A stretch of 37,073 nucleotides of DNA from NCBI GenBank assembly GCA_020627685.1, contig JAHDGK010000043.1, positions 2,973 to 40,045 of the forward strand. Direction: 5' to 3'. A program made the position numbers and the translations under genes. The notes beneath the pieces are model-generated. The model had not been told where the DNA came from. It searched no databases and worked only from the letters and a program-made list of their open reading frames with translations. This document shows positions 1,981 to 17,387 of the stretch, piece after piece (position 1 is the first letter of the stretch; each line of letters opens with the position of its first letter). The DNA is from Granulosicoccus sp. Lineage in GTDB: Bacteria > Pseudomonadota > Gammaproteobacteria > Granulosicoccales > Granulosicoccaceae.

Positions 1981-1981
1981 G

Positions 1982-3049: not shown

Positions 3050-4146
3050 ACGTCTCTCCGCCACAGCTCCAATACAACGCCACGGTTAGGAAAGCGGTCT
3101 TCTGCGTTGACCGGCGCCCAGCAGCCTTCATCAAGAACGTTCTCTCGAGCAACGCCACGTGCCATTAGTGCTTCGGTGACGCGTTGTGCCCGGCCGAGCG
3201 CAAGCCCTTCATTGCCGATTTCAAGTGCAGTGGGGCCGTTGCTACAACCGATGAGGCTAACGACATCACCTTGCTGCAATTCATTTTCGACAAAGTGATC
3301 GATGAGTGACTTGTTGTTGCCACCGAGTATCATTGAGTCGTTGCCGAAAATGATGACTTGTTTGTGTACTTTTTCATAGTCATCCAACAATGAAGCGAAA
3401 GTTGATTCCGCGCCGTAGAAGAGGTTGTTAACTTCAATTTTGCTGGAGTTAAGCGCCTGTAAAGAAGGCCCGTCGATACTTTTTGCCGCGACCTGCTCAA
3501 CCAATTCAGGCGTGATCAATGAAATAATCGGGGCTTGTTCATCCAACCCAAGTGAAGCGACATATTGCGCTTGAGCCAGTGCAGGGTCGCTGACTTGTTT
3601 TCTGCTTGAGGCAATGTCTGTGACCGTTACGGGGGCTCTCGTTCCTGACAGCTTGTAGACACTGAGCGGTGCCACCATTTTTTTACTCACCAGTCGGTAA
3701 TCACGCGTTACCGATACCGCACCGACAGAGACAGAAAAGCTAATTTCATTGTCATTGCCGGCGCTCAATGGTTCGCGTGTATAGGACACGTAGTTAGCTC
3801 CCTGATCCGCACTAACTCTCTGAATGCCGAATCCTTCTTGTCCGAATAGGGTCATGAAGTATTGAAGCGTTGGATCGGAGTTGGCAGCACTGACTTGTAA
3901 GGTGGTATTCAAGGGATCGTATATTTGGGAGACGATACCGGCGAGATCTTCCACGATAGTGCTATCTATGTCGGAAGGCATAGTGGACTTCGATTGTGCA
4001 CCTATCGACTTAATCGCGTTAGAACCTTCGCTTAATTTTTCATTCAGCGTTGAGCAGGCGCTAACTACAAACACCATGCTTACCAGTAGAGTGCGCATGA
4101 ACCATAAACGCGGGCCTTTCTTATTACTCCAACTTAATGCTTGCAT
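3046..4146 (-). CDS. OmpA-like lipoprotein B (paralogue 2 of 3)
   Basis: Predicted lipoprotein of 366 residues from the ATG at 4146, or 350 from the ATG at 4098. The latter begins directly with a signal peptide (MRTLLVSMVFVVSAC) and could be the true start. The frame is open further upstream, but that sequence is not protein-like. The N-terminal module contains TTLQVSAANSD and FGIQRVSADQGANYVSYTRE. The C-terminal OmpA-like domain has NKSLIDHFVENEL, GCSNGPTALEIGNEGLALG and GRAQRVTEALMARGV. The C-terminal 90 residues closely match lipoprotein C on the opposite strand (shared VTEAL and LDEGCWA). It is first in the minus-strand unit and is coupled to lipoprotein A by an ATGA overlap. Function is unknown; an envelope or peptidoglycan-associated role is inferred. 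Confidence 0.78.
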   Translation of the reverse strand: MQALSWSNKKGPRLWFMRTLLVSMVFVVSACSTLNEKLSEGSNAIKSIGAQSKSTMPSDIDSTIVEDLAGIVSQIYDPLNTTLQVSAANSDPTLQYFMTLFGQEGFGIQRVSADQGANYVSYTREPLSAGNDNEISFSVSVGAVSVTRDYRLVSKKMVAPLSVYKLSGTRAPVTVTDIASSRKQVSDPALAQAQYVASLGLDEQAPIISLITPELVEQVAAKSIDGPSLQALNSSKIEVNNLFYGAESTFASLLDDYEKVHKQVIIFGNDSMILGGNNKSLIDHFVENELQQGDVVSLIGCSNGPTALEIGNEGLALGRAQRVTEALMARGVARENVLDEGCWAPVNAEDRFPNRGVVLELWRRDV

Positions 4147-4316
4147 CACGGTTTCCGTGTCTTTTTGTTTGATGACAGTTTCCCGATCATAGCTAATTGT
4201 TTGACGTTTCAGTAACAAACGTGAGTTTAAGCACGACAAGCGCGCACTGTGTGTCGATATACTGACGCTAACTGTGCATTGATAGCGCTGTGACTTAGCA
4301 AAGGATGTCGTTCTGC
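4147..4316. promoter_or_regulatory. Divergent promoter region between paralogous lipoproteins
   Basis: About 170 bp between the heads of lipoproteins B and C, so both transcripts must start here. It is AT-richer than its flanks and contains a TTGACG near 4200 within an imperfect GTTTG...CAAAC inverted repeat. I could not fix a -10 box with confidence. Confidence 0.45.
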
Positions 4317-5348
4317 ATGAAGAAAAGTCTTCCACTAATGTGTTGCATGGTTTCTGTGTGCTGTGTATTCCTTCTGTCAGCGTGTTCATCTTTGCATCCG
4401 ACCGAAGGCCATGTAAAAAGCAGCAACGAACCAACTACGCCTATAAACAGCAGCGCTATCGATAAGATTGCCGCTGATTTTGTGTCGGCTTTGATACAGA
4501 TACCCGGGTATGCACCGCAGTCCACAACCGTGCAAATTGAAAGGGCAAAACTCTCCGACGCCTTCACCAGCGCCATGCGCGATAAGCTCGAATTGTCAGG
4601 CTATGGCATTCGATGGGTCACCGCGCAAGGTGCTAGCAACTTATTTCAGTATCGACGCGAGAACGAAGCGTCAGATATTCCTGGGACACGCACGCGGTAT
4701 GAACTTGCGATAGGTGAAGTTGAGCTTCGCCGTACGTATGTGGGTGTTGAACAAGAGAATGCCGTTCAACCCATCACGCCGTTATACATCCGAGGTGCCG
4801 ATGCTTCCAAGGTTGTTTTAAACGATGCCGCATTTGCCAGGCAAAAACCTCAGACCAGCAAGAGCCGCCTGAGCGTAAGTGATGAGGTGAGTCCATTGTC
4901 AACGTGGGCCACAAAAGAGCAGAATGAAAATCCGTTGGCTATGCCGCTGGTTGCCTTGCCGACCGTTAGGAACGTTTTCGAACTAGGCGGGTCGAACCAC
5001 AGCGATGCACTTGCTAGCCACAGTATTGTTGTGGAACGACTACTCACGTTTTCAAACGACTCTCTTCGACTGGGAGCCGTCAATAAACAGATCATTCACG
5101 CTGTTGTCTCCGACTATGAAGCTGCAACAGATGTGTTTTCGGTACTGGGGTGTTCAATGGGGCCGACTGAGCTTAAAGGTGGTAATGCAGCTCTGGCACT
5201 TGGCCGGGCCAGCCGGGTTACAGAAGCGCTTTTGTTTGCAGGTGTAGCACCTGACAAGATTCTTGACGAAGGGTGCTGGGCAGGTGATAGTGGCAGCAAT
5301 ACGCTTCCTAAGCGTGGCGTTATATTGACACTTAACAGGCGAATGTGA
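4317..5348 (+). CDS. OmpA-like lipoprotein C (paralogue 3 of 3)
   Basis: 343-residue predicted lipoprotein; signal peptide MKKSLPLMCCMVSVCCVFLLSAC with lipobox LSAC. The ATG at 4317 is preferred over 4305 because an AAGGA at 4301-4305 precedes it and it gives a normal basic N-region. The N-terminal module carries TTVQIERAKLSDAFTSAM, YGIRWVTAQGASNLFQYRRE and LAIGEVELRRTY, aligning throughout with lipoproteins A and B. The OmpA-like C-terminus has NKQIIHAVVSDYE, GCSMGPTELKGGNAALALG and GRASRVTEALLFAGV, then LDEGCWAGDSG. It is divergently transcribed from its two paralogues and followed five bases later by a thioredoxin-fold gene. Function unknown; probably an outer-membrane lipoprotein facing the periplasm. 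Confidence 0.78.
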   Translation: MKKSLPLMCCMVSVCCVFLLSACSSLHPTEGHVKSSNEPTTPINSSAIDKIAADFVSALIQIPGYAPQSTTVQIERAKLSDAFTSAMRDKLELSGYGIRWVTAQGASNLFQYRRENEASDIPGTRTRYELAIGEVELRRTYVGVEQENAVQPITPLYIRGADASKVVLNDAAFARQKPQTSKSRLSVSDEVSPLSTWATKEQNENPLAMPLVALPTVRNVFELGGSNHSDALASHSIVVERLLTFSNDSLRLGAVNKQIIHAVVSDYEAATDVFSVLGCSMGPTELKGGNAALALGRASRVTEALLFAGVAPDKILDEGCWAGDSGSNTLPKRGVILTLNRRM

Positions 5349-5353
5349 AGTAA

Positions 5354-5857
5354 ATGATTGAGTCCCGGTTCATTCAGGCGTGTGTATTTAGATTGCCGCT
5401 TGCTCTTATCTTACTGCTGAGTATGGGGAGCGTCAGTGCGTTCCAGCTTCAAGCATTGGACAAATCTCGCGTCAATCTGCTCGATTACGTCGGAGACGGG
5501 CGGTGGACTTTGGTGATGTTTTGGTCGACAGATTGTATTCCGTGCGAGGAACAAAAGCCGATGATCGAAGACTTCCACCGAACCTACCAGGCCAGCAATG
5601 CCAAAGTGATCGGCATCGCTCTGGACGGAATGGAAAATTATTCCGGTATTAAAAAACTAGTCGATCTTCATCAGCCCACTTACCCGAATTTGGTGGTGTT
5701 CACCGATGTTTTCCATCGGCAATACCAGGAACTGACCAGCAAACAGTTCCGTGCTACGCCCACCTATTTATTGTTTTCCCCAACCGGGCAACTGGCAGGT
5801 ACCCGGGCCGGGAGAATAGAGCGAGCAATGCTCGATTCCATAGTGAGCGCTAAATAG
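5354..5857 (+). CDS. TlpA/ResA-like periplasmic thioredoxin-fold protein
   Basis: 167 residues with an N-terminal signal/anchor (about 10-29, ending SVSA). The thioredoxin fold follows: WTLVMFWSTDCIPCEEQKP holds the active-site Cys61-Ile-Pro-Cys64, and RATPTYLLF supplies the cis-proline (P136). The length fits the TlpA/ResA group of thiol-disulfide reductases acting outside the cytoplasm. It starts five bases after lipoprotein C and is probably co-transcribed. Since the paralogues contain a conserved Cys pair in the OmpA-like domain (GCS... and EGCWA), it may keep those in the right redox state (inference). Its 3' end overlaps the convergent xylB by 8 bp. Confidence 0.85.
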   Translation: MIESRFIQACVFRLPLALILLLSMGSVSAFQLQALDKSRVNLLDYVGDGRWTLVMFWSTDCIPCEEQKPMIEDFHRTYQASNAKVIGIALDGMENYSGIKKLVDLHQPTYPNLVVFTDVFHRQYQELTSKQFRATPTYLLFSPTGQLAGTRAGRIERAMLDSIVSAK

Positions 5858-7313
5858 ACAAATCCTGACTCATGATAGGAGCTAAGGATTGGTAAGTTGC
5901 CCTGTAGCGTTCGTGCAGTTCTACGAATTGACCATGCCGGCTATCAGGTTCGATTGTTTTTCGAGTGGCTGGAGCGCTGCATACTTGAAACGGATCAGCT
6001 TCTTCGGCGGCGATCAAACCTAAGCGAGCTGCTCCCAGACTGGCACCGTAGTCGCCATCGGCAGGGATATCCAGAGGCAGGCTTAAGGTATTGGAAATAA
6101 TCTGTAACCAGTACTCTGATTTAGCACCGCCACCAATAGCCGTGGCTCGATTCAGTTGAGTACCTGCGGACTGCAAGGCTAGATAACTATCGCGGAAAGC
6201 GAAGCTTACGCCCTGCATAACCGCTCGCACCATATCGGCTGTGTCTGTCGTGTGTTTTAAACCGACAAACACACCACGAGCATTGGCATCGTTAATCGGT
6301 GTTCTTTCTCCGCCCAAGTACGGCAGAAAGATTAAATCGGTTGGAGCCGCGTCGCGGTCTTGGACGGATGCTGCTAATTCAGCTGGCGTAGAGTTGACGA
6401 CTTTAGCCAACCAGTTAAGCGCGTCAGTGGCTGCCAGTATGACTCCCATTTGATGCCATGTATCGGGCAGGGCGTGGCAAAAAGCATGAACAGCACTTTC
6501 AGCGTTTGGCTGATAAGCATCATTTGCGGCAAATAAAACACCAGACGTACCCAATGATAAAAATGCGCTACCGCCGGCAACAGTACCCATACCGCAGGCA
6601 CTCGCCGCATTGTCTCCGGCACCACCTGCGATGACAACCTGGGGGCTCATGCCGTAACGTGCGGCCAATTCTTTTCGAAGTGTACCGGATGATTCTGTGC
6701 CTTCTACAAGCCATGGCATTTGCGACGCTTCCAAGTCCATCGCGCCGAGTAGATCGAACGACCATCGACGGTTAGCAACATCTAACCAACCGGTTCCGGC
6801 AGCATCGGACATGTCGGCAACATGTTCACCGGTTAACCAAAGTCTGGCGTAATCTTTTGGCAGTAACACTTTTGAAATACGAGCGAACGCATCCGGTTCA
6901 TGCTCTGCAACCCAGGCAACCTTAGGCGCGGTAAACCCTGGAAACAAGATGTTTCCGGCAATTTTGCGCGACTGTGCAGTGTCCAGACGGCTGGCTTGCT
7001 CATGGCTTCGGGTATCGTTCCAAAGCATGCACGGGCGGATAACTTCGTCTTTATTATCAATTAGGGTAGCGCCATGCATATGACCGGACAAACCAATGCC
7101 TCGGACTGCGGACAGCTCGTCTGCATGACTCGATTTAATGGCGTCCAGTGTCTGTTCTATTGCAGTAATCCAATCGGCCGGATTTTGTTCTGACCACCCA
7201 TCGTGCGGACGACTAACTTCAAGAGACGCTGAATGGCTGGCGACCATGCTCTGATTCTCATTCATCAGAACGGTTTTGACACTGGAGGTGCCTAGGTCAA
7301 TTCCCAAATACAT
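5850..7313 (-). CDS. xylB: Xylulokinase
   Basis: 487 residues, normal length for XylB of the FGGY kinase family, which phosphorylates D-xylulose to D-xylulose 5-phosphate in the cytoplasm. N-terminal phosphate-binding MYLGIDLGTSSVKTVL (Asp6), substrate-side GLSGHMHGATL and LWNDTRS, and the catalytic-Asp motif AGGAGDNAASACGMG (Asp234). The ATP-binding motif AIGGGAKSEYWLQI lies towards the C-terminus. It is last in the minus-strand arm of the xylose regulon, seven bases downstream of the CRTAC1-like gene, with GGAA about nine bases before the ATG. The pathway partner XylA is on the opposite arm. Specificity for xylulose rather than another ketose is supported by that context. Confidence 0.95.
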   Translation of the reverse strand: MYLGIDLGTSSVKTVLMNENQSMVASHSASLEVSRPHDGWSEQNPADWITAIEQTLDAIKSSHADELSAVRGIGLSGHMHGATLIDNKDEVIRPCMLWNDTRSHEQASRLDTAQSRKIAGNILFPGFTAPKVAWVAEHEPDAFARISKVLLPKDYARLWLTGEHVADMSDAAGTGWLDVANRRWSFDLLGAMDLEASQMPWLVEGTESSGTLRKELAARYGMSPQVVIAGGAGDNAASACGMGTVAGGSAFLSLGTSGVLFAANDAYQPNAESAVHAFCHALPDTWHQMGVILAATDALNWLAKVVNSTPAELAASVQDRDAAPTDLIFLPYLGGERTPINDANARGVFVGLKHTTDTADMVRAVMQGVSFAFRDSYLALQSAGTQLNRATAIGGGAKSEYWLQIISNTLSLPLDIPADGDYGASLGAARLGLIAAEEADPFQVCSAPATRKTIEPDSRHGQFVELHERYRATYQSLAPIMSQDLSI

Positions 7314-7319
7314 AATTTG

Positions 7320-8993
7320 TTATTCCGGCGTAGTAGTTGATGTTGAGGCAATGGGAAACCACTGACTAAAGGTATTTTTCGAACGCTCTATGACGACGTG
7401 ATGGTTAGCAAAGAGTTTGAACGGGGCGCTCCATTCGCCATCAGGCCATTGCACTCGCACGGTTGCGCGTTCCGCGACGCCTAAACCGACATGCACGAAT
7501 CCGGCGCTGCCTGAAGCATGTCCGCCACCGACTTGGGTTACGCGGCTTTGGACCTTATTGCCGGTTTTAATAGAGAGCTTTGCACCGATGGCGTTTCGGT
7601 TAGCCCCTTTTTGCTGCAGTTCAATTTTGAGCCAATTCCCGCCTTGGCGAGGACCGTGTTCACTGATCATTCCTTCGTTGCGAAACAAGCTGATATTGTC
7701 TGCCCGATTAACGACAACGATATCCAGCAAACCATCGGCATTTAAATCAACAACGCTTGCGCCGCGACCGCGTGTGTTTAATGCAACGCCGGCGGCTGAT
7801 CCTTGTTCGCTGAAATGGCCTTTTTCCGAACCCATGAGTAAATTGTCCGGATCAAACTGTGCAAAGTCGCTCATGCGTTCGACATTGCCTTTGGTGATGA
7901 ACAAATCCAAATGGGCATCGTTGTTGAGATCTTCAAACTGCGCGTGCCAGCCGGTACTGGGTTTCAAATCATCACCGGTGTAGGGGCGATGCGCTGTTGC
8001 ACCGCGAGTCCAAGCCATGTCTTCGTATCGGGGGCGGTTCTCATCTATTGCTTGTTCCAGATCCAGAATTTGTAGTTTCGTATCGCCCATGGAGGTGAGC
8101 GCATACTCCGGGTAACCATCAGCATTTAAATCAGCCTCCGCAATACCCATTCCCCAAATAACGAGAGGTTCCCAACCTTCTGATGCCGAATATAGTCGCG
8201 GGTAACGGCCACTATTAAGACGCCATAGTTGTTCCTGTCCACCGCGGTAATAGTGACGATCATTCGTGACCCTCAGGGCATTAACACCGGATTTATTCCA
8301 GTCGGTGAACAACAAAGACAACGCACAGTATCCGGGTGAGAGAGGCAAGGGATCAGTATAGTTGGGCGAGGCGTTATCGCTTGCCGGGCGATGTAGTTCG
8401 TTGTCATGACACGTACCCCAGGGAGAGCCCGGCGCTGTGCGATCCACGTAGTTGCCCACGGCCAGCGTGGGAAAGTTATTGCCAGGTTCAAACGTTGCAC
8501 TAAAAGCCGTACTCCAGTCACTGCCACCTGCAAATTTCCAGCGATTATTGGCTTGGATGAATTGACAGTCTGGGCCACCTTCAAACAATAGGTTCTCACC
8601 AACCCGAAGCACGACTAAATCTAAGAAGCCATCGTTGTTAATATCCAATGGATAACTACCGATGACTTTATCAACCGATAAAGGGGACGCATCGGATTTT
8701 TCAAACGCTAATGCGCCTCCGGGCGAGCTTTTGTTGATGTACATAGCGGCATCATTAGTGCCACCGGCAAAGAACAAGTCTGGCATTCGATCCTGATTAC
8801 AATCGAAAGCACTAACGCCACCGCCCACAAAGTATTCCCAGGGGCCATCGTAGCTATGCTTGATGCCTGCTGCTACAGCCTCTTCATGCAGGGATGGAAT
8901 GTCGCCTTGGTATGGCAAGTCTTCAGCCTGCGATGAACTGGCTGATAACACGCTCAGCATTGAAAACATCAGGATGTAAACAAACTTCTTCAT
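7320..8993 (-). CDS. CRTAC1-family secreted protein (FG-GAP/VCBS repeats plus ASPIC/UnbV domain)
   Basis: 557 residues with a Sec signal peptide (ending SSQAEDLP). A beta-propeller-like series of Ca-binding FG-GAP motifs follows: DCNQDRMPDLFFAGG (about 64), DINNDGFLDLVVL (about 117), DLNADGYPEYALT, DLNNDAHLDLFIT and DLNADGLLDIVVV. The C-terminal ASPIC/UnbV domain includes GGNWLKIELQQKGANRNAIG and ends with VRVQWPDGEWS. Such proteins are exported; their biochemical role in bacteria is not settled. Its ATG overlaps the stop of the di-heme oxidoreductase as ATGA, so the two are translationally coupled, and xylB follows after six bases. A place inside a xylose operon is unexpected. Confidence 0.85.
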   Translation of the reverse strand: MKKFVYILMFSMLSVLSASSSQAEDLPYQGDIPSLHEEAVAAGIKHSYDGPWEYFVGGGVSAFDCNQDRMPDLFFAGGTNDAAMYINKSSPGGALAFEKSDASPLSVDKVIGSYPLDINNDGFLDLVVLRVGENLLFEGGPDCQFIQANNRWKFAGGSDWSTAFSATFEPGNNFPTLAVGNYVDRTAPGSPWGTCHDNELHRPASDNASPNYTDPLPLSPGYCALSLLFTDWNKSGVNALRVTNDRHYYRGGQEQLWRLNSGRYPRLYSASEGWEPLVIWGMGIAEADLNADGYPEYALTSMGDTKLQILDLEQAIDENRPRYEDMAWTRGATAHRPYTGDDLKPSTGWHAQFEDLNNDAHLDLFITKGNVERMSDFAQFDPDNLLMGSEKGHFSEQGSAAGVALNTRGRGASVVDLNADGLLDIVVVNRADNISLFRNEGMISEHGPRQGGNWLKIELQQKGANRNAIGAKLSIKTGNKVQSRVTQVGGGHASGSAGFVHVGLGVAERATVRVQWPDGEWSAPFKLFANHHVVIERSKNTFSQWFPIASTSTTTPE

Positions 8994-10408
8994 GGCGTTA
9001 TGACCAGCGTTTTCAACCAGGCAATCAGATCTGTCTGGGAAGCTTCATCAAGCGCTTTCCACGCATCTCTGGATGGACGCGCTGCACCACCGTGTGCATT
9101 AATAGCTTCACGCAACGTTGTCATATCGCCACGATGTCCATAGGGAGCTGTTGAGGCAACTCCCCATAACTCGGTCGTCATAAATACGTTTCTTTCAACG
9201 AAGCGTTGTGACAACAGTTCGTTGCCGAATGCAGCAACTTGCTGGTCTGCGATAACGTGTCGTTTCAAATCGCCGAACAGTGGGACTTTGTAGTCTCCGT
9301 TCTCGTCCTTCTCGAGCGTTGCCGCCCAATCCAGAAGAGCCATGTCATAAACAGTATCGGGTACTTCGCCCATGCGTAGTGTGCCTGCAGCATCCATGTT
9401 TCCAGGGTCTGCGAAAGCTAATGAACTTAATGGCAAGTAGGGTAGGTGGCAGTCTGCACAACCCGCCTCTTTAAAACGTTGCTCACCGCGTTGTGCAGCG
9501 GCCATCCAACGTTCATCTTCAACATTCAATGGCAATGGCGGAGCTAGCGTTGCTTGCCACGCAACCAAGGCTGACACGTCGCCACTGGAAATTTCTTTTT
9601 CAAAGCCATCTTCATCATGGTCGTCGGTACTGGTCCAGCGCGCACCGAAACGTTCTGAGGCCTGCATGCCGTGATGATGATTAAGTGCGTTAACGGTGAA
9701 TTGACGCAAGGATGTCATGACGCCTTTGTGGCTGAACGGTCGTATGACCAAGTCGCTATCGATGCCTTCAATGTTCGATGTGTCCACTCGACCATCGGGA
9801 TACGCGGTAATAAATCCGTACTCAACACCTTTGGCATTTAGTACGTGTTTTACCGGTATTTTCGTAGCCTTTGCTTCCAGCAATGCCTGATGTCTTTGGT
9901 CAATCAATGAGCTTGTCATTTCTCGTGCCAGCAGTTCAACTAGGCCTGCACCAAATAAATGATTCGTGTTTCGCTCGTTTGAAAACTGAGGGTCGGTGGT
10001 GTCGAAGTCGGAATGCTGGAAGCCTTCGGACACGAAAACATTCGCTGAAAAATCACCTGCACCACCGACCACCGGGACGTTGTGGCAACTGGAACACGCG
10101 TTAGCGTCTAATCCAGCCGTGCGTGCAAATTCACTGCGTGGTGGACGTTTTCTTTTGGTCGGTATGATGGCCTGTGTGGCCATAGGCCGACCGACGCCAT
10201 CTTCGCTGGTAAATCGCGCACTGAATAACGTGTTTCCAGCATCTATTAGCGATAGCAACTGCTGTTTGTTTAAAGTGCCTTGGTAGTCGCTAATGTTGAC
10301 GGGTTGGGGAATGGCTTTTTCTGACCACGGATCGTTTGCATGGGCCGTGATGGCGATTGCGATAGTGGCGGCTAAACCACATTTTACAGAGAACATGTGA
10401 TGCTTCAT
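8990..10408 (-). CDS. Di-heme c-type oxidoreductase (DHOR / DUF1111-like), periplasmic
   Basis: 472 residues, with a signal peptide (through TAHA). Two CxxCH heme c sites are present: CSSCH at 105-109 and CADCH at 317-321. The C-terminal TTELWGVASTAPYGHRGDMTTLREAINAHGG is the pattern of the di-heme oxidoreductase family, related to MauG/cytochrome c peroxidases. It would be matured in the periplasm and pass electrons to or from an unknown substrate. Both junctions are ATGA overlaps, with the ROK regulator upstream and the CRTAC1-like gene downstream, so its expression is tied to the regulator. A link to xylose is seen only from gene order. Substrate unknown. Confidence 0.88.
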   Translation of the reverse strand: MKHHMFSVKCGLAATIAIAITAHANDPWSEKAIPQPVNISDYQGTLNKQQLLSLIDAGNTLFSARFTSEDGVGRPMATQAIIPTKRKRPPRSEFARTAGLDANACSSCHNVPVVGGAGDFSANVFVSEGFQHSDFDTTDPQFSNERNTNHLFGAGLVELLAREMTSSLIDQRHQALLEAKATKIPVKHVLNAKGVEYGFITAYPDGRVDTSNIEGIDSDLVIRPFSHKGVMTSLRQFTVNALNHHHGMQASERFGARWTSTDDHDEDGFEKEISSGDVSALVAWQATLAPPLPLNVEDERWMAAAQRGEQRFKEAGCADCHLPYLPLSSLAFADPGNMDAAGTLRMGEVPDTVYDMALLDWAATLEKDENGDYKVPLFGDLKRHVIADQQVAAFGNELLSQRFVERNVFMTTELWGVASTAPYGHRGDMTTLREAINAHGGAARPSRDAWKALDEASQTDLIAWLKTLVITP

Positions 10409-11637
10409 GAGGTTATAAGCGATTCGAATCCGGGGTCGGAAAATAGCTCGTCCACATTGCGTAAACTGCTTTGAATGAGGCCGAATTCCAAAAGCTCTTT
10501 TTCGTTATTAAAATAATGTATGAGGTCTGAGACGGTCTTTTCATCGTCTAGATTTTGCCGAAATACAGATTCGATTCCTTCTCGCATTAAACTGAAGGCA
10601 CGATCATCGTGACCGATAAGTGCAACGGGCATTGGATCGAATAAGGTGAAGAGATTTACCAGGCCCTCCGCCACGGCTGCACCAGCTATAGCAAATGCCT
10701 GTGAGACGGCTTTATCACCATTGATTGCTTGACCGACTAAGTCATCGAGAGTTTCAGAAGAGACTCGACCAACAGGCACATCAGATATCGAGTTACCGAA
10801 GGCCATACGCTCGATACCATAGTTGGCTGCGTAGGCTTCTATACAGCCTAATTTACCGCACCGGCACAGTGCGCCGTTTCGTTCAAAGCGCATATGACCC
10901 AATTCAAGGGCAGAGGATCGTATACCGGAGAAGGGGCGTCCGCCTAAAAATAAGCCAAGTCCGATACCGTGCGAGAAAAGTACGGTGGCAAAAGACTGAC
11001 CGAGTTCTTGTTGGTTTTTTTGGCTAAGCGCCTCGGACATGAGCTGACAATCGTTTTCGACGCTGACCGAGATGTCGTATCGCGACCCGAGAGACTCGCC
11101 CAGAGCGACGTTCTGAAGCTGCAAAATGGGTGACCAGAGTAGTGTGCCGGTCGCGTGTTCTGTCACACCCTGAAACGCGACTGCAATGTGCAGTAAGCGT
11201 TTGGTTGTCTGCTTGTCACAGAGTTCGTCCACCGCTTGGGTGATGCAGCTCAGGAGGTCGTCTTCGCTGAGTGCTCGCGTATCAGTTGTTATGCTGCGCG
11301 ACTCACACACCTTGCCGTCATATTTCACACTTTGAATTTCAATGTGGTCAATGGTGATGTTGACGGTAATCGTAAAGCCTGCCTGCGAATTGAGCGACAG
11401 TAGGGTCTTGGGCCGCCCCCGTCCGGTTTTGCGCACCGATTCGGGGTCTTTCTCACTTTTCAGAATGCCCTGATCGATCAGCTGAGTGGATAGCGTCGAC
11501 ACGGAAGCCGCGCTAAGTCCTGTCAGATCTCGCAGTTTTGCGGGTGCACAGGCGCCGTGTAAACGCAGAGTTTCCAGTAGTCGCCTCCTGTTTTCGCTGC
11601 GTAAATCGTCGCTTCGTATGATCGGGGAACCGCGCAT
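10405..11637 (-). CDS. ROK-family transcriptional regulator, probable xylose repressor
   Basis: 410 residues: N-terminal winged helix-turn-helix (about 14-75; ENRRRLLETLRLHGACAPAK, then LTGLSAASVS) followed by a ROK sugar-kinase-like domain. The ROK zinc motif GALCRCGKLGCIEAY is near residues 250-262, preceded by ALELGHMRFE. Proteins of this type (Mlc, NagC, Gram-positive XylR) repress sugar genes and release DNA on sugar binding. It is divergent from xylF and is the first gene of its own operon, so it likely autoregulates and controls both arms through the inverted repeat at 11711-11734. The start at 11637 lacks a strong Shine-Dalgarno. It could be named xylR, but it is unrelated to the AraC-type XylR of E. 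coli. Confidence 0.9.
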   Translation of the reverse strand: MRGSPIIRSDDLRSENRRRLLETLRLHGACAPAKLRDLTGLSAASVSTLSTQLIDQGILKSEKDPESVRKTGRGRPKTLLSLNSQAGFTITVNITIDHIEIQSVKYDGKVCESRSITTDTRALSEDDLLSCITQAVDELCDKQTTKRLLHIAVAFQGVTEHATGTLLWSPILQLQNVALGESLGSRYDISVSVENDCQLMSEALSQKNQQELGQSFATVLFSHGIGLGLFLGGRPFSGIRSSALELGHMRFERNGALCRCGKLGCIEAYAANYGIERMAFGNSISDVPVGRVSSETLDDLVGQAINGDKAVSQAFAIAGAAVAEGLVNLFTLFDPMPVALIGHDDRAFSLMREGIESVFRQNLDDEKTVSDLIHYFNNEKELLEFGLIQSSLRNVDELFSDPGFESLITS

Positions 11638-11683
11638 CTATGTAGGTCTTGTTATGAATGTTGTGATGAAACAGAAAAACAAC

Positions 11684-11689
11684 TTGACA
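11684..11689 (+). promoter_or_regulatory. Candidate -35 box of xylF promoter
   Basis: Perfect TTGACA in the ROK-xylF intergenic region. No good -10 lies 16-18 bases downstream, so the assignment is tentative; the only AT-rich elements downstream fall within the inverted repeat. Confidence 0.35.
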
Positions 11690-11710
11690 CATTTCGATTC
11701 AGAAGTCACC

Positions 11711-11734
11711 ATTTATTCCAGTCGTGAAATAAAT
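11711..11734. promoter_or_regulatory. Inverted repeat, candidate ROK-repressor operator
   Basis: Perfect 7-bp arms ATTTATT (11711-11717) and AATAAAT (11728-11734) separated by 10 bp, in the region divergent between the ROK gene and xylF. NagC/Mlc operators have a similar AT-rich arm layout (TTATTT...AAATAA type). A repressor bound here would cover the region just downstream of the TTGACA. Confidence 0.5.
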
Positions 11735-11828
11735 ACCTCACGTCTGTCGCAAAACTGCGACTATCGAAACCCGCGCGTCGTATTACAGAATGATATCTGA
11801 CGATGCCGAACAACAACTTGGAGTTAGT

Positions 11829-12866
11829 ATGAATAAATTTGGAGTCCTGTTAGTGGCTGCAACTGTATCGGCTGCTTTTGCTGGTCCGGTTATGGCTGAA
11901 GGAAAGACAATCGGTGTTTCTTGGTCAAACTTCCAAGAAGAGCGCTGGAAGACTGACGAAGCCGCTATGAAGGCAGCTATCGAAGCTGCTGGCGACACTT
12001 ACATCTCAGCAGACGCACAGTCTTCAGCATCTAAGCAGCTGACTGACGTTGAAGCACTGATCGCTCAAGGCGCTGACGCGCTAATCCTGCTTGCGCAAGA
12101 TTCTGGTGCAATCGGCCCAGCCGTTGAAAAAGCCAGTGCTGAAGGTATCCCTGTCGTTGGTTACGATCGCCTGATCGAAAACTCTGACGCGTTCTACATC
12201 ACCTTCGACAACGTTGAAGTCGGTCGTATGCAAGCTCGTGCAGTTCTCGCTGCAATGCCTGAAGGTAACTACGCGTTTATCAAAGGTTCTTCTTCAGATC
12301 CAAACGCTGACTTCCTGTTCGGTGGACAGATGGAAGTTCTTAAAGAAGCTATGGATGCAGGCAAAATCAAGAACGTTGGTGAAGCCTACACAGATGGTTG
12401 GAAGCCTGAGAACGCACAGCGCAACATGGAACAGATCCTGACGGCTAACGACAACAACGTCGATGCTGTTGTTGCGTCTAACGACGGAACAGCTGGTGGT
12501 GTTGTTGCTGCACTGGCAGCTCAAGGCCTTGACGGTTCAGTGCCTGTTTCAGGTCAAGACGGCGATCACGCTGCGCTTAACCGAGTTGCTCGTGGAACTC
12601 AGACTGTATCTGTATGGAAAGATGCTCGTGACCTAGGTAAGAATGCTGCACAAGTTGCGACAATGCTTGCTGATGGCAAAGCCATGGCCGACATTCCAGG
12701 TGCAGTACAGTGGTCAGGTGGTCCTAATGGCGTAGAAATGAACGCTATTTTCTTGGCACCAGTACCTGTCACAGCAGACAACCTAGGCGACGTTATCGAT
12801 GCTGGTTGGATCGCGAAAGACAAAGTATGTGAAGGCGCTGCTGATTCAGTAGCTGCTTGTCAGTAA
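11829..12866 (+). CDS. xylF: D-xylose ABC transporter, periplasmic substrate-binding protein
   Basis: 345 residues from the ATG at 11829, which has GGAG eight bases upstream and begins directly with a signal peptide ([23 protein letters not shown]). The frame is open back to 11790 but that extension would spoil the signal. Mature features match Xyl[60 protein letters not shown] and [19 protein letters not shown]. It binds D-xylose in the periplasm for XylGH. It is the first gene of the plus arm and is followed by a strong hairpin before xylH, fitting the need for more binding protein than permease. Assignment is firm because xylH, xylG and xylA follow. Confidence 0.95.
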
Positions 12867-12922
12867 TCGGTTTTCCTCCGAGAAGTGCCCGTAGGCTTGT
12901 AAAGCTACGGTAGTTAGTGAAG

Positions 12923-12960
12923 GGGCGGTAACACGTGGCCCGTGTTGTCGCCCTTTTTTT
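12923..12960 (+). terminator. Terminator-like hairpin / attenuator between xylF and xylH
   Basis: A 13-bp stem (arms 12923-12935 and 12941-12953, two G-T wobbles) with loop tggcc, followed by seven T. This is a textbook Rho-independent structure inside the operon. It probably stops part of the transcription after xylF. A smaller ccgtag/ctacgg hairpin precedes it near 12889-12910. Confidence 0.85.
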
Positions 12961-12999
12961 ATCCTTTTTTTGTGTTGACTATCGCCAGGTAGGAAGTAA

Positions 13000-14316
13000 A
13001 TGACCGATAACAGCAATGCTACTGCGTCACCGCAAGGTGCTCGTCAGAGTGAAGAATCTGCAATAACCCGATTTTTTCGCGCCACAGAGGTAGATACCCG
13101 CATGTTGGGTATGCTCGGTGCGCTTATGCTCATTTGGATAATGTTCCATCTGTTTTCAGACGGGCGTTTTTTAACACCGAGAAATCTTTGGAACCTCTCG
13201 GTGCAAACATCGTCGGTAGCTATCATGTCAACCGGCATGGTGCTGATCATTGTGACCCGGCACATTGACTTGTCAGTTGGCTCCATTCTTGGCTTTGTCG
13301 CCATGATTATGGGTGTCACGCAAACTTCGTTTCTGCCGGATTTACTTGGCCTTGGCAGTCCCGTCACCTGGGTTATCACTCTAAGTGTGGGGATTGTTGT
13401 CGGGGCGCTTATCGGTGCCATACACGGCTATGTCATCGCGTATTTGGCGGTGCCCGCGTTCATTGTTACGCTGGGCGGCTTGCTTGTTTGGCGCGGTGCA
13501 GCTTGGTGGGTCACCTCTGGACAAACGGTTGCCCCGATGGATGCAACCTTCCGACTCATGGGCGGCGGCCCCTACGGCTCAATCGGTGCTTTCTGGAGTT
13601 GGGTGGTTGCAGCGGTTGCGTGTATCGGCATTTTGCTGATGATTGTCACTACTCGTCGAAACCGAAAACGATTTAATTTTCCCTTACGTCCTTTATGGGC
13701 CGAACTCACGTTAGTTGTTGTTGGCTGTGGCGCTGTGCTATCGGCAGTAGCAGTCGCTAATAATTACCCATGGCCCAAGGGAATTGTTAAGCGCTACGCG
13801 ACGGCAAACAATATCGAAGTACCCGATGGTGGATTGTTCATCGCACACGGCATTGCTATTCCTGTTCTTATCGCGATTGCTGTGGGCATCATTATGACGT
13901 TCATCGCCACCCGGACACGATTCGGCCGCTATGTTTTCGCGATGGGTGGAAACCCGGAGGCCGCTGAGCTTGCCGGTATTAACACTCGTTGGGTCACCAT
14001 GAAAATCTTCATACTCATGGGAATCCTGTGTGCCATCGCCGGTGCAATTTCAACCGCCCGCTTGAATGCTTCAACCAACGCCCAAGGAACACTGGACGAA
14101 CTGTTGGTTATTGCTGCGGCGGTCATCGGTGGAACATCACTGGGTGGTGGAATAGGCACCATCGTCGGCGCCATGATTGGTGCAGTGGTTATGCAATCTC
14201 TGCAAAGCGGCATGGTGCTGTTAGGCGTCGATGCACCGTTTCAAAACGTGGTGGTCGGTATCGTACTGGTATTGGCAGTCTGGTTAGACGGTCTATATCG
14301 TCGTCGCTCTGTGTAA
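13000..14316 (+). CDS. xylH: D-xylose ABC transporter permease
   Basis: 438-residue polytopic membrane protein of the BPD-transp-2 (ribose/xylose) permease family. After a soluble N-terminus of about 35 residues come hydrophobic segments from MLGALMLIWIMFHLF onward. Signature motifs are STGMVLIIVTRHIDLSVGSI and FAMGGNPEAAELAGI; the latter is the conserved cytoplasmic loop that contacts the ATPase. VIGGTSLGGGIGTIVGAMIG lies near the end. Length and the long insertion between the two halves match XylH rather than RbsC. It forms the membrane channel with XylG. The ATG follows AGGAAG by about five bases, and the gene sits 133 bp after xylF with a terminator-like hairpin between. Confidence 0.95.
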   Translation: MTDNSNATASPQGARQSEESAITRFFRATEVDTRMLGMLGALMLIWIMFHLFSDGRFLTPRNLWNLSVQTSSVAIMSTGMVLIIVTRHIDLSVGSILGFVAMIMGVTQTSFLPDLLGLGSPVTWVITLSVGIVVGALIGAIHGYVIAYLAVPAFIVTLGGLLVWRGAAWWVTSGQTVAPMDATFRLMGGGPYGSIGAFWSWVVAAVACIGILLMIVTTRRNRKRFNFPLRPLWAELTLVVVGCGAVLSAVAVANNYPWPKGIVKRYATANNIEVPDGGLFIAHGIAIPVLIAIAVGIIMTFIATRTRFGRYVFAMGGNPEAAELAGINTRWVTMKIFILMGILCAIAGAISTARLNASTNAQGTLDELLVIAAAVIGGTSLGGGIGTIVGAMIGAVVMQSLQSGMVLLGVDAPFQNVVVGIVLVLAVWLDGLYRRRSV

Positions 14317-14334
14317 GTGTCTGGAGAAACAATC

Positions 14335-15144
14335 ATGCAAGAACAAACAACGACGGATAACAACACACAGGCAGCGCCAAAAGTTGTGGAGATGACTGAT
14401 TGCTCCATATCGTTTGGTGGTATTCACGCGGTGGATCACGCCTCACTCGATCTTCACAAAGGTGAAGTGGTTGCCTTGTTAGGCCATAACGGCGCGGGTA
14501 AGTCGACGTTCATCAAATTGCTGTCGGGAGCCTACAAAAGAGATAGCGGCACCATCCGTATTCGAGGTGAAGAAGCCACGATCAACAACCCGCGTGATGC
14601 GAAAGCATATGGTATCGAAACCATCTATCAGACTCTGGCGTTGGCCGATAACGTGGACACGGCGGCAAACCTTTACTTGGGCCGTGAACTGCGCACGGCT
14701 TGGGGTACGCTCGATGATGTTGCGATGGAAGCACAGGCTCGTGAGGTAATGGGACGGTTAAACCCTCGCTTCCAGCGTTTCAAAGAGCCGGTTAAAGCGC
14801 TGTCAGGTGGTCAGCGTCAGTCTGTGGCGATCGCCCGGGCTATTTTATTTAACGCTCAAATTCTAATCATGGATGAACCTACTGCTGCACTGGGACCGCA
14901 GGAAACAGCGCAGGTGGGTGAGTTGATAAAACAGCTGAAAAATGACGGTATCAGTATTTTTCTCATCAGTCACGACATTGAAGACGTGTTCGATTTAGCG
15001 GACAGAGTTGCGGTGATGAAGAACGGGCAAATGGTCGGTACTGCACCGGTGGATGCAGTCACAAAAGATGAAGTGTTAGGAATGATCATTCTGGGTAAGT
15101 GTCCACCGGGCGCCACGCCTGGCCCTGGCGCTATGGACGAGTAA
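14335..15144 (+). CDS. xylG: D-xylose ABC transporter ATP-binding protein, single-domain form
   Basis: 269 residues. Walker [10 protein letters not shown] (50-58), Q-loop near YQT (98-100), signature LSGGQ (156-160), Walker B ILIMDE (176-181) and H-loop His213 are all intact. The ATG at 14335 has GGAG eight bases upstream; the frame also opens with GTG at 14317 right after the xylH stop. Many XylG proteins (E. coli) are about 510 residues with two ATPase domains. This one has a single domain, as in some proteobacterial xylose or fructose importers, so it should act as a homodimer. The Pro/Gly-rich tail ([13 protein letters not shown]) is unusual. It energises xylose uptake through XylH. Confidence 0.92.
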
Positions 15145-15176
15145 GCTCACCGCTTCACACACGTAATTAATTTATC

Positions 15177-15209
15177 AGCGTCGCCAACGTTGTTTATCAA
15201 GGCGGCGCT
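15177..15209 (+). other. Hairpin in the xylG-xylA gap
   Basis: A 9-bp stem (15177-15185 with 15201-15209, one wobble) and a 15-base loop sit in the 85-bp gap, with no T-run after. It may be a processing or mRNA-stability element; no promoter was identified here. Confidence 0.4.
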
Positions 15210-15229
15210 TTGCAACAAGGAAAAAACGA

Positions 15230-16540
15230 ATGAGTACTGGCTTTTTTGGTGATATCGAAAAAATTCCGTTTGGCGGCTCCGATAGCGTAAACCCGTTAGA
15301 GTTTCGTCACTACCAGCCCGATGAGATCATCATGGGCAAGCGCATGGAAGATCACCTGCGCTTCGCGGTTTGCTACTGGCATAACTTTGTCTGGCCGGGT
15401 GGCGATCCGTTTGGCGGGCAAACTTTTGAGCGTCCCTGGTTTGGTGACACGATTGAAAACGCCAAACTCAAAGCCGATGTTGCCTTTGAAATGTTTTCGG
15501 CCCTGGGTGTTCCGTACTATTGCTTTCATGATTTCGATATGCGGCCGGATGGAAACTCGTTTGCAGAGAACACACGCAACCTGGAAATCATGACGGATTA
15601 CCTGGGTGAGAAAATGGATGCCACAGGTTTAAAGTTGTTGTGGGGTACCGCGAACTTGTTTTCACACCGTCGATATATGTCCGGTGCGTCAACCAATCCA
15701 GACCCGGATGTCTTCGCGTTTTCAGCGGCCACCGTGAAAACCTGCATTGATGCAACGCATAAGTTGAACGGCGAAAACTACGTGTTGTGGGGCGGTCGCG
15801 AAGGTTACGAGACGCTACTGAATACTGACGTGGCCAGAGAGTTGGACCAGTTGGGACGTTTTCTTAATATGGTTGTTGAGTACAAACATAAGATTGGTTT
15901 CAAAGGGGCCATCTTGATAGAACCTAAGCCGCAGGAACCCACCAAGCACCAATACGACTTTGACGTGGCCACGGTCTACGGTTTTCTGAAGCGTTATGGT
16001 TTGGAAAACGAAGTGCGAGTCAACATAGAGCAGGGGCACGCGATCCTGGCGGGTCATTCATTCGAACATGAACTGGCCATGGCAAATGCGCTGGGTATTT
16101 TCGGTTCAATCGATATGAATCGAAACGACTATCAGTCCGGTTGGGATACCGATCAATTCCCCAATAACGTACCGGAAATGGCCTTAGCCTACTATCATGT
16201 CTTGCAGGGCGGAGGATTTACGACAGGTGGTACAAACTTTGATGCCAAGCTGCGTCGTCAGTCAATCGACCCGGAAGACCTCCTGATTGCACATATCGGC
16301 GGCATGGATTGCTGCGCTCGCGGTCTGAAAGCGGCGGCGAAAATGCTCGAAGACGGTGCTTTATCGACACCTATGACTGAACGATATGCGGGTTGGGAGG
16401 ACAAAACAGCTAAGCAAATGCTTGACGGTACGTTAGGTCTTGATGACATCGCGGCTCATGTCTTGCAAAATGATGTAAATCCAACTCCGAGATCAGGAAG
16501 GCAGGAGAAGCTTGAAAATATTGTCAATCGATACGTATAA
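15230..16540 (+). CDS. xylA: Xylose isomerase
   Basis: 436 residues, normal length for the class II enzyme that converts D-xylose to D-xylulose in the cytoplasm. Catalytic CFHDFD (His100, Asp103), [10 protein letters not shown], the metal-site motif [16 protein letters not shown] (Glu231 onward), [18 protein letters not shown] (Glu267, His270) and [17 protein letters not shown] are all present. AAGGAAAA lies about eight bases upstream of the ATG. It is the fourth gene of the plus arm, and its 3' end contains the ribosome-binding site and TTG start of the DUF4159 gene, so the two are translationally coupled. Its product feeds XylB on the other arm. Confidence 0.97.
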
Positions 16541-17387
16541 GGCGTTCGGTATAGCCGGCCTGCTCACGGCCGGCTTGTTTACGACCGGCTCGGTACAAGC
16601 CGAGCTGGCTATATGCAGTACTCCTCAGCGACCTGAGTGCCCGGCGGCTTTGAGCCGCCCGGCGAATGAAGAATTTACGTTTTCTCGCCTGATTTTTAAT
16701 GACAACCAGGCGGCAATCGAAAATCTGGGCGATCGCATCGGTTACCCGCACTGGCAGGCAGACTGCTCAGAGTCGGAGCCGCATTTTATTGCAGCCTTGA
16801 AGCGCTTAACCCGATTGGATACCAACTCCGATAGCCAATCCATTTTCTTACTCGATGAGCGCATCTACGACTACCCGATGTTGTACGTGGTTGAAGCAGG
16901 CTTTGCCTCATTTTCAACGCCCGAGGCTGAAAACTTACGCGAGTATTTGCTGCGTGGAGGTTTTCTGCTGGTCGACGATTTTCACGGTTCCTACCAGTGG
17001 GAGCAGTTTGAAAACTGGATGGGACAGGTATTTCCTGATCGGCCCATTGTCGATATTCCACCCGATCACGAAATCTTCAACGTGCATTTTGATATCGATG
17101 AATTCATCCAGATACCCGGCCTAAGAGCATTGTGCCTAAACCCAGGCGAGACATGGGAATTGCCCATTGAGAAAAGCTCGCTGGTCAACGAAAGCAACAC
17201 CTCACGTCAGCAACCTAAATGGCGCGGTGTTCTGGATGATGATGGACGAGTGATGTCTATCATCAATTGGAATATGGATTTAGGCGACGCTTGGGAGCAT
17301 GCTGATATGGAAGAATACAGTGCTCTATACACAGCTACGGCTTATCGTTTGGGCGTGAATTACGTGCTCTACGGTATGACTCACTAG
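16512..17387 (+). CDS. Exported DUF4159-domain protein coupled to xylA
   Basis: 291 residues starting at a TTG that overlaps xylA by 29 bp. The start is supported by AGGAG at 16503-16507, four bases before the TTG, and by the signal peptide it produces (hydrophobic [20 protein letters not shown]). The DUF4159 core is clear: [72 protein letters not shown] and a C-terminal [11 protein letters not shown]. This fold resembles class I glutamine amidotransferases, but the function is unknown. Most members I know of are found beside MoxR/vWA envelope genes rather than in sugar operons. Being last before a strong terminator, it is clearly part of the xylose transcript. Confidence 0.85.

Follow-up and report, generated by a model that had tools for sequence, protein, structure and literature searches.

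A CRTAC1-family protein and its peroxidase-type partners beside a xylose-type importer in Alpha- and Gammaproteobacteria

We describe a gene module in which a CRTAC1 protein is paired with a di-heme peroxidase-type protein (DHOR) and accompanied by an XylFHG importer and a ROK-family regulator. Comparison of predicted genes across genomes establishes the pairing, its conservation, the exchange of DHOR for other peroxidase types and the tie to the importer, and gives good support to the view that the module is real, conserved and not strain-specific. By the same comparisons, DHOR is one of several predicted peroxidase-type partners of CRTAC1. We tentatively propose that the peroxidase-type enzyme matures CRTAC1 oxidatively or re-oxidizes it, as part of the handling of aldoses in the periplasm. 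To our knowledge, no function has been assigned to the common bacterial CRTAC1/ASPIC and DHOR proteins, and we found no published description of the module, including of CRTAC1 with a xylose operon, in open-licence PMC papers.

Gene layout and the paired proteins

The window, the whole 37,073-nucleotide stretch of Granulosicoccus DNA that was analysed, carries the module as two divergent units (Table 1). A 4-base ATGA overlap lies at each of the ROK/DHOR and DHOR/CRTAC1 joints, with all three frames open, and xylB begins 6 bases past the CRTAC1 stop on the same (-) strand. The genes xylF, xylH, xylG and xylA and the DUF4159 gene occupy the + strand (about 11829-17387), divergent from ROK-DHOR-CRTAC1-xylB. 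These coordinates confirm the arrangement given in a preliminary description, with two overlaps leading into xylB and facing xylFHGA. Its prediction that DHOR and CRTAC1 are exported likewise agrees with the signal-peptide-like N-terminal stretch that we recognized by eye in both.

Table 1. Positions of the module's genes and sites in the Granulosicoccus window
Feature	Position	Strand	Remarks
xylB	5850..7313	-	xylulokinase, variable member
CRTAC1	7320..8993	-	FG-GAP / UnbV_ASPIC protein, signal-peptide-like start, 557 aa
DHOR	8990..10408	-	di-heme peroxidase-type protein, signal-peptide-like start, 472 aa
DHOR His439 codon	9092..9094	-	same in all 39 sequences; the PDB profile alignment places it opposite a Met of classical CCP (1nml)
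DHOR second heme motif	9446..9460	-	CADCH, residues 317-321; from sequence
DHOR first heme motif	10082..10096	-	CSSCH, residues 105-109; from sequence
ROK-family regulator	10405..11637	-	MarR-type DNA-binding N-terminus
Palindrome ATTTATTCCAGTCGTGAAATAAAT	11711..11734	.	candidate operator for ROK, in the ROK-xylF gap
xylF	11829..12866	+	periplasmic binding protein; start codon assigned by eye
xylH-type permease	13000..14316	+	
xylG-type ATP-binding protein	14317..15144	+	short form (275 aa)
xylA	15230..16540	+	xylose isomerase, variable member
DUF4159 protein	16512..17387	+	neighbour only, judged outside module

The importer and xylose genes score above their NCBIfam cut-offs (XylF 422 against an equivalog cut-off of 389.55; XylB 566 against 380; XylA 682 against 533), and XylF matches the D-xylose-binding protein 3m9w (E 1e-65). 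Pfam assigns the ROK regulator at 114.8 bits and the DUF4159 protein at 150.9 bits. CRTAC1 is recognized by both FG-GAP_3 (66.5 bits) and UnbV_ASPIC (39.6 bits, cut-off 23.4), and its sole solved relative found by PDB profile search is cartilage acidic protein 1 (9etn, E 3.2e-18). Cysteines 65, 143, 195 and 223 of CRTAC1 are invariant across 126 aligned sequences, a set that excludes four short rows, 14 duplicate loci, L036 and L084-L104; we regard the cofactor residues of CRTAC1 as candidates only.

AlphaFold models of DHOR and CRTAC1, built from thin alignments (9 and 8 rows), were weak (pLDDT 48 and 54), and thus DHOR was placed by sequence profiles. It matches PF06537 at 30.2 bits (gathering cut-off 22) over residues 407-468 only, and all 39 aligned relatives match the family at E <= 0.001. 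The residues of both CXXCH heme motifs (C105, C108 and H109; C317, C320 and H321) are invariant in 39 sequences. By alignment alone, DHOR appears to depart from the classical di-heme CCP, having His439 instead of the Met that we take to be the axial ligand of the electron-transfer heme. It also falls below the MauG equivalog TIGR03791 (18.4 against a cut-off of 443.85), and members of its family match TIGR03981 (32/39) and TIGR04039 (31/39) weakly, all under the cut-offs.

Conservation of the pair and its tie to the importer

CRTAC1 adjoins DHOR in 43/43 family-set loci. A scan of 84,980 species gave 367 relatives, and in the 80 loci retained from these the two genes again adjoin in 80/80, which exceeds chance. 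The two genes overlap by 4 bases in 42 of 73 complete pairs, some counts depending on start codons picked by closeness to the window's own starts. XylF lies in the locus in 64 of the 69 cases with enough flank, the remaining five genomes carrying ROK//xylFHG elsewhere, and ROK is present in 71 of the 80 scanned loci. Clustering of the 4,819 ORFs of these 80 loci, after removal of clusters whose position and strand suggest shadow ORFs of these genes, returned no further neighbour as frequent as DHOR, CRTAC1, ROK, XylF, XylH and XylG. Where the preliminary description saw a fixed, xylose-linked set, the DHOR-CRTAC1 pair stands as fixed and is linked to a xylose-type importer in both Alpha- and Gammaproteobacteria; thus the restriction to a single strain that was to refute it does not hold, the search having found the arrangement well beyond that strain. 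The DUF4159 protein, included in that set, is rejected as a member because it occurs in 14/80 scanned loci, and in the family set only in loci of Granulosicoccus. The genes xylA and xylB each occur in 33/80 loci and are variable members.

In one alphaproteobacterial order (297 genomes), DHOR was found in 35, CRTAC1 in 63 and XylF in 95, in a nested pattern whose counts are not independent by descent. CRTAC1 accompanies DHOR in 34/35 genomes (the exception being a DHOR cut by a contig end), XylF accompanies DHOR in 35/35, and 61/63 CRTAC1 genomes encode XylF, with no XylF match in G582 and G704. As 34 XylF genomes are without CRTAC1, the importer does not need CRTAC1.

This nesting argues against the pair being a functionally unlinked passenger of a mobile xylose operon. 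Where the pair is split, with DHOR at xylFHG and CRTAC1 elsewhere (G197, G145), both genes are retained, and several gene orders recur with different partners, including a co-directional xylB-xylA-DHOR-CRTAC1-xylFHG in L246, which also speaks against a passenger. We consider a passenger very improbable, even though some pairs lie apart from xylFHG, the module spans Alpha- and Gammaproteobacteria, and the Granulosicoccus rows L050 and L052 group with an alphaproteobacterial row in a tree whose DHOR-paired rows were thinned by hand from 95 to 33. Among plasmids, CRTAC1 is matched in 64 records, 58 of them Phaeobacter. Four were examined, and the Phaeobacter and Ruegeria conchae records carry ROK-CRTAC1 with a CCP and an aldose epimerase, accompanied in R. 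conchae by xylA and xylB. In Phaeobacter inhibens DSM 17395 the ROK, CRTAC1 and CCP genes are PGA1_RS18340, PGA1_RS18335 and PGA1_RS18330. The epimerase was present in only 10 of the loci examined and thus is not universal.

The palindrome between ROK and xylF is conserved, which fits a ROK operator and marks it as a candidate site. In the five genomes with the DHOR pair away from xylFHG, no operator-like site was found before DHOR, 16 to 74 of 200 shuffles being equally good, and this is evidence against a universal regulatory link. The substrate may also be broader than the gene names suggest. In the available text of PMC10130141, mutant tests tie xylFGH of Ruegeria pomeroyi to glucose and xylose, and pooled TnSeq agrees for glucose and not for xylose. 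We infer that this importer is orthologous to that of the module, and thus the label 'xylose' may not cover all that it imports.

The tie to the importer could also reflect attack on a polymer, with CRTAC1 binding or cleaving an algal or plant polymer, the peroxidase attacking it oxidatively, and the freed xylose or glucose passing to the adjoining importer. Some host names are marine, and Granulosicoccus is kelp-dwelling according to the portion of PMC9238374 at hand. The weak CRTAC1 model, which fits 9etn best, also matched aldos-2-ulose dehydratase (4a7y), an enzyme acting on keto-sugars, at rank 7, after CRTAC1 itself. With a mean pLDDT of 54 behind it, this match is a lead, not evidence. 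Clustering of the 80 loci revealed no further universal neighbour, which counts against polymer attack, and we judge it unlikely.

Exchange of the peroxidase-type partner

In 29 CRTAC1 genomes without DHOR, the enzyme adjacent to CRTAC1 is a CCP/MauG-type di-heme protein in 8 and a vanadium-haloperoxidase-type protein in 12; none is adjacent in 8, and one locus ends at a contig edge. XylF falls within the fetched stretch around CRTAC1 in 23/28 DHOR-less loci and lies apart in 5/28. Five of the 8 genomes without an adjacent peroxidase encode the same CCP type elsewhere (41-74% identity), which lends the partnership slight support. In G647, G673 and G715, all from a single genus and one of them 71% complete, CRTAC1 sits inside xylBA-xylFHG and the tested peroxidase types were not found. 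In Ruegeria sp. TM1040 no peroxidase adjoins ROK-CRTAC1, which stands next to xylF and the accompanying permease and ATPase genes.

The CCP-type partners have DHOR's C-terminal half in common by profile (96.5%), and one reaches 263 bits with the MauG-like TIGR03981 (cut-off 340). By profile, the vanadium-type partners as a group show no relationship to DHOR (0.1%). One of them (L243) matches PDB 4cit over its full length (E 3.5e-75), and K337, R344, S371-G372-H373, R423 and H429, presumably the oxyanion site, are invariant in the 8 aligned of 12. These features identify the L243 protein as a predicted vanadium-dependent haloperoxidase, although the vanadium-type partners could instead be phosphatases of the same fold. 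No paper linking CRTAC1/UnbV with such a haloperoxidase was found in the open-licence PMC literature.

That a vanadium-type enzyme without a heme motif can substitute weighs against the two proteins forming one electron-transfer or catalytic complex, as in hydrazine synthase with its propeller and di-heme subunits. One CCP partner weakly matches hydrazine synthase gamma (5c2v_C, 1.5e-5), and CRTAC1 genes also occur near propeller-diheme fusion genes related to that enzyme (PMC12758564, in the part available). The gamma subunit (5c2v chain C) is nevertheless absent from the 17 PDB matches of the DHOR profile at E <= 0.1, and such a complex seems quite improbable.

The interchange of DHOR, CCP and vanadium types is also what simple peroxide removal would predict: if CRTAC1 or its partner were a sugar oxidase making H2O2, any peroxidase would suffice to clear it, and unrelated types would be found. 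The tie to an aldose importer and the aldose epimerase of some loci fit as well. However, Pfam finds no known oxidase domain in CRTAC1, the one-to-one coupling seems tighter than scavenging requires, and vanadium haloperoxidases do not make good general scavengers of peroxide. We therefore hold peroxide removal to be a serious but rather unlikely account.

We prefer the reading in which the peroxidase-type enzyme acts on or for CRTAC1. ROK would de-repress both divergent units upon entry of an aldose (xylose or glucose), and CRTAC1 and its partner would be exported. The partner, a role that DHOR would fill in the Granulosicoccus window, would carry out a peroxide-dependent oxidation that makes or re-arms an oxidized residue or metal centre, by analogy with MauG/MbnH on their protein partners or with the peroxidase for galactose-oxidase-type enzymes. 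CRTAC1, an FG-GAP protein probably stabilized by calcium, would then meet the sugar or a sugar precursor in the periplasm. In a bolder and doubtful extension, the CRTAC1 of this clade may represent a new class of periplasmic aldose-active enzyme, whose oxidized-residue or metal-radical centre would be made or re-armed by a peroxidase devoted to it, with three enzyme types (DHOR di-heme, CCP/MauG di-heme and vanadium) having assumed this one maturation task.

The importer tie suggests xylose and glucose as the probable kind of substrate, and the peroxidase swapping suggests peroxide-dependent oxidation as the probable chemistry. Both are thus testable, for instance in P. inhibens DSM 17395. Should CRTAC1 prove to be modified by the peroxidase, the module would be a case of unrelated maturation enzymes for one protein.

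Comparison with known systems

The module resembles xylFHG/ROK xylose operons in its XylF, XylB and XylA and its divergent ROK, and differs in the added CRTAC1-peroxidase pair; we know of no described xyl operon with such a pair. Cartilage acidic protein 1 is a relative of the bacterial CRTAC1 by profile and is the best fold match of its weak model, but it is an animal protein, and the best-aligned stretch covers about 120 residues near the C-terminus.

Fungal copper radical oxidases are propeller proteins. They are gene-linked to and co-secreted with a tandem peroxidase that activates the oxidase, as the accessible part of PMC9770985 describes. The likeness is that of a gene-linked pair with a peroxidase and claims no sequence relation, as the fungal pair joins a copper radical oxidase to a class II heme peroxidase. 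Hydrazine-synthase-like clusters (PMC12758564, as far as its text was available) also place a CRTAC1 gene beside di-heme CCP-type proteins, in one clade with ABC binding-protein genes. They differ in having other di-heme proteins, a fused propeller and an extra alpha subunit, and the word 'xylose' does not appear in the main text of that source as available.

Like MauG and MbnH, the module pairs a two-heme protein of the CCP superfamily with one other protein, and one CCP partner and most DHOR members match the MauG-like TIGR03981, all under the cut-offs. The protein partners of MauG and MbnH are MADH beta and MbnP, whereas that of the module is CRTAC1, and here the heme enzyme appears replaceable by a vanadium-type one.

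Gene arrangement and the DHOR-CRTAC1 pair

The preliminary description had the ROK regulator gene, the di-heme peroxidase-type gene (DHOR, PF06537) and the CRTAC1 gene joined by two overlaps and running into xylB, and this arrangement was confirmed, with four bases shared at each joint and 6 bases separating CRTAC1 from xylB downstream. DHOR contains two CXXCH motifs and exceeds the Pfam cut-off through only 62 residues near its C terminus; in CRTAC1 the domains are FG-GAP and UnbV_ASPIC, and the relative with a solved structure is CRTAC1 (9etn). An AhpC/TSA thioredoxin-like gene, convergent with xylB, is kept at the locus in close Granulosicoccus relatives. Three adjacent genes in the window encode related lipoprotein-like products, a trio with OmpA-like ends as judged by eye.

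Features of the window, with positions within it
Feature	Position	Strand	Basis or remark
ROK	10405-11637	minus	Pfam
DHOR	8990-10408	minus	Pfam
CRTAC1	7320-8993	minus	Pfam
xylB	5850-7313	minus	NCBIfam
xylF, xylH, xylG, xylA, DUF4159		plus	names backed by Pfam and NCBIfam
AhpC/TSA thioredoxin-like gene	5354-5857		
Lipoprotein-like gene	1982-3064		product 26% identical to that of 4305-5348 (tblastn)
Lipoprotein-like gene	3046-4434		product 34% identical to that of 4305-5348 (tblastn)
Lipoprotein-like gene	4305-5348		no Pfam match
Palindrome ATTTATTCCAGTCGTGAAATAAAT	11711-11734		between ROK and xylF

A DHOR search of 143 related genomes gave matches at E <= 0.001 in 51, and regions were fetched for all 43 genomes with an orthologue (identity of at least 55%), namely 42 within the window's family, its own genome counted, out of the 48 in that family, and one other (G121). 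The remaining six family genomes had no match (four) or only a weak one (two). CRTAC1 adjoined DHOR in 43/43 of these loci; where at least 2.2 kb lay upstream, XylF was present in 35/35 and ROK in 34/35, and the presence of XylA, XylB and DUF4159 was variable. A species-wide scan, using one genome for each of 84,980 species, returned 367 relatives, and among the best 80 of these, which were analysed, 44 are, going by their names, not Gammaproteobacteria and come mostly from Alphaproteobacteria (for example, Hoeflea, Aurantimonas, Mesorhizobium and Pelagibius). The preliminary description had also placed DHOR, CRTAC1 and DUF4159 together with xylA, xylB and ROK. In the best 80 of 367 loci, part of which are the same contigs as the family set, the company of CRTAC1 with DHOR (80/80, in adjacent positions), XylF (69/80) and ROK (71/80) was borne out, but that of DUF4159 (14/80) and of xylA and xylB (33/80 each) was not. 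Of these loci, 69 extend 3.5 kb or more upstream, and XylF was found in 64 of them. Among 73 complete pairs, with start codons picked by similarity, 42 share the ATGA overlap and 9 overlap by a single base.

DHOR-type proteins were rare in a phylum sample of 398 genomes, with matches (E <= 1e-15) in only nine, the window's own included. No CRTAC1 was detected by tblastn in the stretches around distant DHOR genes (L034, L035, L037-L040, L180-L182 and the plasmid loci L183-L185), and on this evidence the pairing seems to belong to the branch of the window's DHOR. One distant gene, on Azospirillum brasilense plasmid p3 (L185, region 1191-7890), lies near genes for a 'tryptophan 7-halogenase' and for a CTQ-dependent oxidase of the LodA/GoxA kind, a further hint of DHOR proteins near enzymes with modified residues; another, on an Antarctobacter plasmid (L184, region 7839-10573), has a gene for a YHYH protein after it.

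Association with a xylose-type importer

Co-occurrence was assessed in 297 genomes sampled evenly, and not picked for the module, from one order (that of G528, inferred to be alphaproteobacterial because XylF has the same place in G591 as in the Rhodobium orientis genome), with presence set at E <= 1e-60 for DHOR and CRTAC1 and E <= 1e-90 for XylF. DHOR was present in 35 genomes, CRTAC1 in 63 and XylF in 95 (21, 31 and 47 of 123 genera, respectively). CRTAC1 accompanied DHOR in 34/35 genomes, the exception (G744) having DHOR cut at a contig end, XylF accompanied DHOR in 35/35 and CRTAC1 in 61/63, and 34 genomes had XylF without CRTAC1; thus, the three are nearly nested in occurrence, and the Fisher values for these counts ignore descent and are not to be taken as probabilities. 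By coordinates, DHOR adjoins CRTAC1 in 32/35. In G197 and G145 they are separated yet both retained; there DHOR faces xylFHG, and no ROK was found in the interval between DHOR and xylFHG. Where CRTAC1 has moved off, a protein with a signal-peptide-like start is encoded next to DHOR and convergent with it (L178, 5248-5976, without a Pfam match; L179, 9656-10336).

Gene order differs among relatives. Alongside the divergent order seen in the window, the single-strand orders xylB-xylA-DHOR-CRTAC1-xylF-xylH-xylG (L246) and xylB-xylA-CRTAC1-xylF (L238, L249, L251) occur, as do xylFHG-DHOR-CRTAC1 (L259, L263) and xylFHG-vanadium-haloperoxidase type-CRTAC1 (L237, L241, L255). Plasmids with a CRTAC1 match numbered 64, and four annotated ones were examined. 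Those of Phaeobacter inhibens DSM 17395 and Ruegeria conchae carry xylF divergent from ROK-CRTAC1, with a cytochrome c peroxidase and an aldose epimerase, and that of R. conchae has xylA and xylB too. On the Ruegeria sp. TM1040 plasmid no peroxidase adjoins CRTAC1; on that of Rhodobacteraceae SC52 CRTAC1 is accompanied by a cytochrome c peroxidase, and the 17 kb stretch examined lacks a xyl gene. Hitchhiking alone would hardly explain this recurrence. An aldose epimerase gene is present in 10 of the examined loci; its position is not constant, and some loci (L267, L270, L247, L140) have it directly beside CCP or CRTAC1. In several Granulosicoccus genomes the operon's xylA is a C-terminal remnant (G023, at L057 about 4245-4445, where five stops interrupt the open stretch; L060 and L062), with the DUF4159 gene and xylFHG retained; G023, G018 and G012 have intact xylA copies at other sites.

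XylF resembles the D-xylose-binding protein 3m9w (1e-65). Mutant tests reported for Ruegeria pomeroyi tie xylFGH (SPO0861-0863) to glucose and xylose, and pooled TnSeq agrees on glucose but not on xylose (PMC10130141). Xylose is among the sugars released by kelp, and another study describes Granulosicoccus living with kelp as capable of taking up kelp-released sugars (PMC9238374).

A 26-base form of the palindrome, taken from L054, recurs unchanged in L057, and the window departs from it in one end base. When 152 upstream regions were compared with 30 single-base shuffles each, the best match to this form was better in the real region than in any shuffle in 84; many regions are the same contig twice, and the relatives are not independent. 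Many sites in the scanned Alphaproteobacteria approximate TTTCGAG-CTCGAAA. We take this motif to resemble the operators bound by Mlc, NagC and similar ROK regulators; scanning window positions 11500-12000 for promoters and terminators found nothing. The five loci that lack XylF despite at least 3.5 kb upstream (L132, L133, L143, L148, L157) carry a DHOR-CRTAC1 pair with no xyl genes or ROK nearby, and ROK divergent from xylFHG lies elsewhere in each genome. No operator-like site was found ahead of DHOR in these five, and thus co-regulation finds no support in those genomes.

Exchange of the peroxidase-type partner

CRTAC1 surroundings were fetched for all 29 genomes with CRTAC1 but without DHOR, and XylF was present in 23 of 28 judgeable stretches. 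In eight of the 29, CRTAC1 has a di-heme protein beside it (430-467 amino acids in the seven read), convergent with CRTAC1 in 7/8; three were Pfam-scanned, all CCP_MauG (PF03150), and the others were assigned by tblastn. In 12, a neighbour of another kind lies upstream on the same strand (433 and 455 amino acids in the two fully read); these two were Pfam-scanned as PAP2 and the others assigned by tblastn. One of these is similar along its length to 4cit, a vanadium-dependent haloperoxidase (3.5e-75), and an NCBIfam scan of three gave no match. Neither type adjoins CRTAC1 in eight, and one lies at a contig end. XylF was found with the CCP type in 7/8, with the vanadium type in 9/12 and with neither adjacent in 7/8; three more rows of this tally belong to other genomes. 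Of the eight without an adjacent partner, none encodes a vanadium type anywhere, and five encode a CCP type at another site (41-74% identity); the other three, of one genus, have neither.

The C-terminal half of DHOR is shared with the CCP type (hhalign 96.5%); DHOR and the vanadium type show no similarity (0.1%). Of the 126 CRTAC1 proteins, 64 were placed in a tree, built by a quick method with no root inferred, in which all 12 vanadium-type-paired proteins form one clade; with unpaired rows excluded, only two partner changes are needed, the minimum for three labels, and partner type thus follows the descent of CRTAC1. Different versions occur within one bacterial family (for example, f181 and f186).

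Possible action on CRTAC1 and known systems

The trait common to the three partner types is the use of peroxide for oxidation, DHOR being a 'putative peroxidase' only. The heme partners are closest to MauG-like models, yet under the cut-offs; DHOR has an invariant histidine aligned with a methionine of classical CCP, and the CCP partners have one in the same region. Across 126 aligned CRTAC1 sequences, four cysteines are conserved in all, and W349, H350, H501, M282, M302 and M374 are each present in at least 97%; these are candidates, nothing more, for disulphide or cofactor-site residues. Taken together, these features lead us to prefer, with somewhat less than even confidence, a reading in which the peroxidase-type enzyme would act on CRTAC1 as its target. 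The main rival is that the partner enzyme is a scavenger.

For a peroxidase-type enzyme with CRTAC1 as its target, MauG and MbnH, each acting on its own partner protein, offer a comparable mode of working. Among the open-licence PMC papers found, judged from titles and the beginnings of abstracts, none describes CRTAC1 paired with a peroxidase at a sugar importer. CRTAC1 genes also lie beside hydrazine-synthase-like di-heme proteins, according to one report (PMC12758564). Fungal oxidase-peroxidase pairs work in a manner comparable to that proposed for CRTAC1 and its peroxidase-type partner (PMC9770985).
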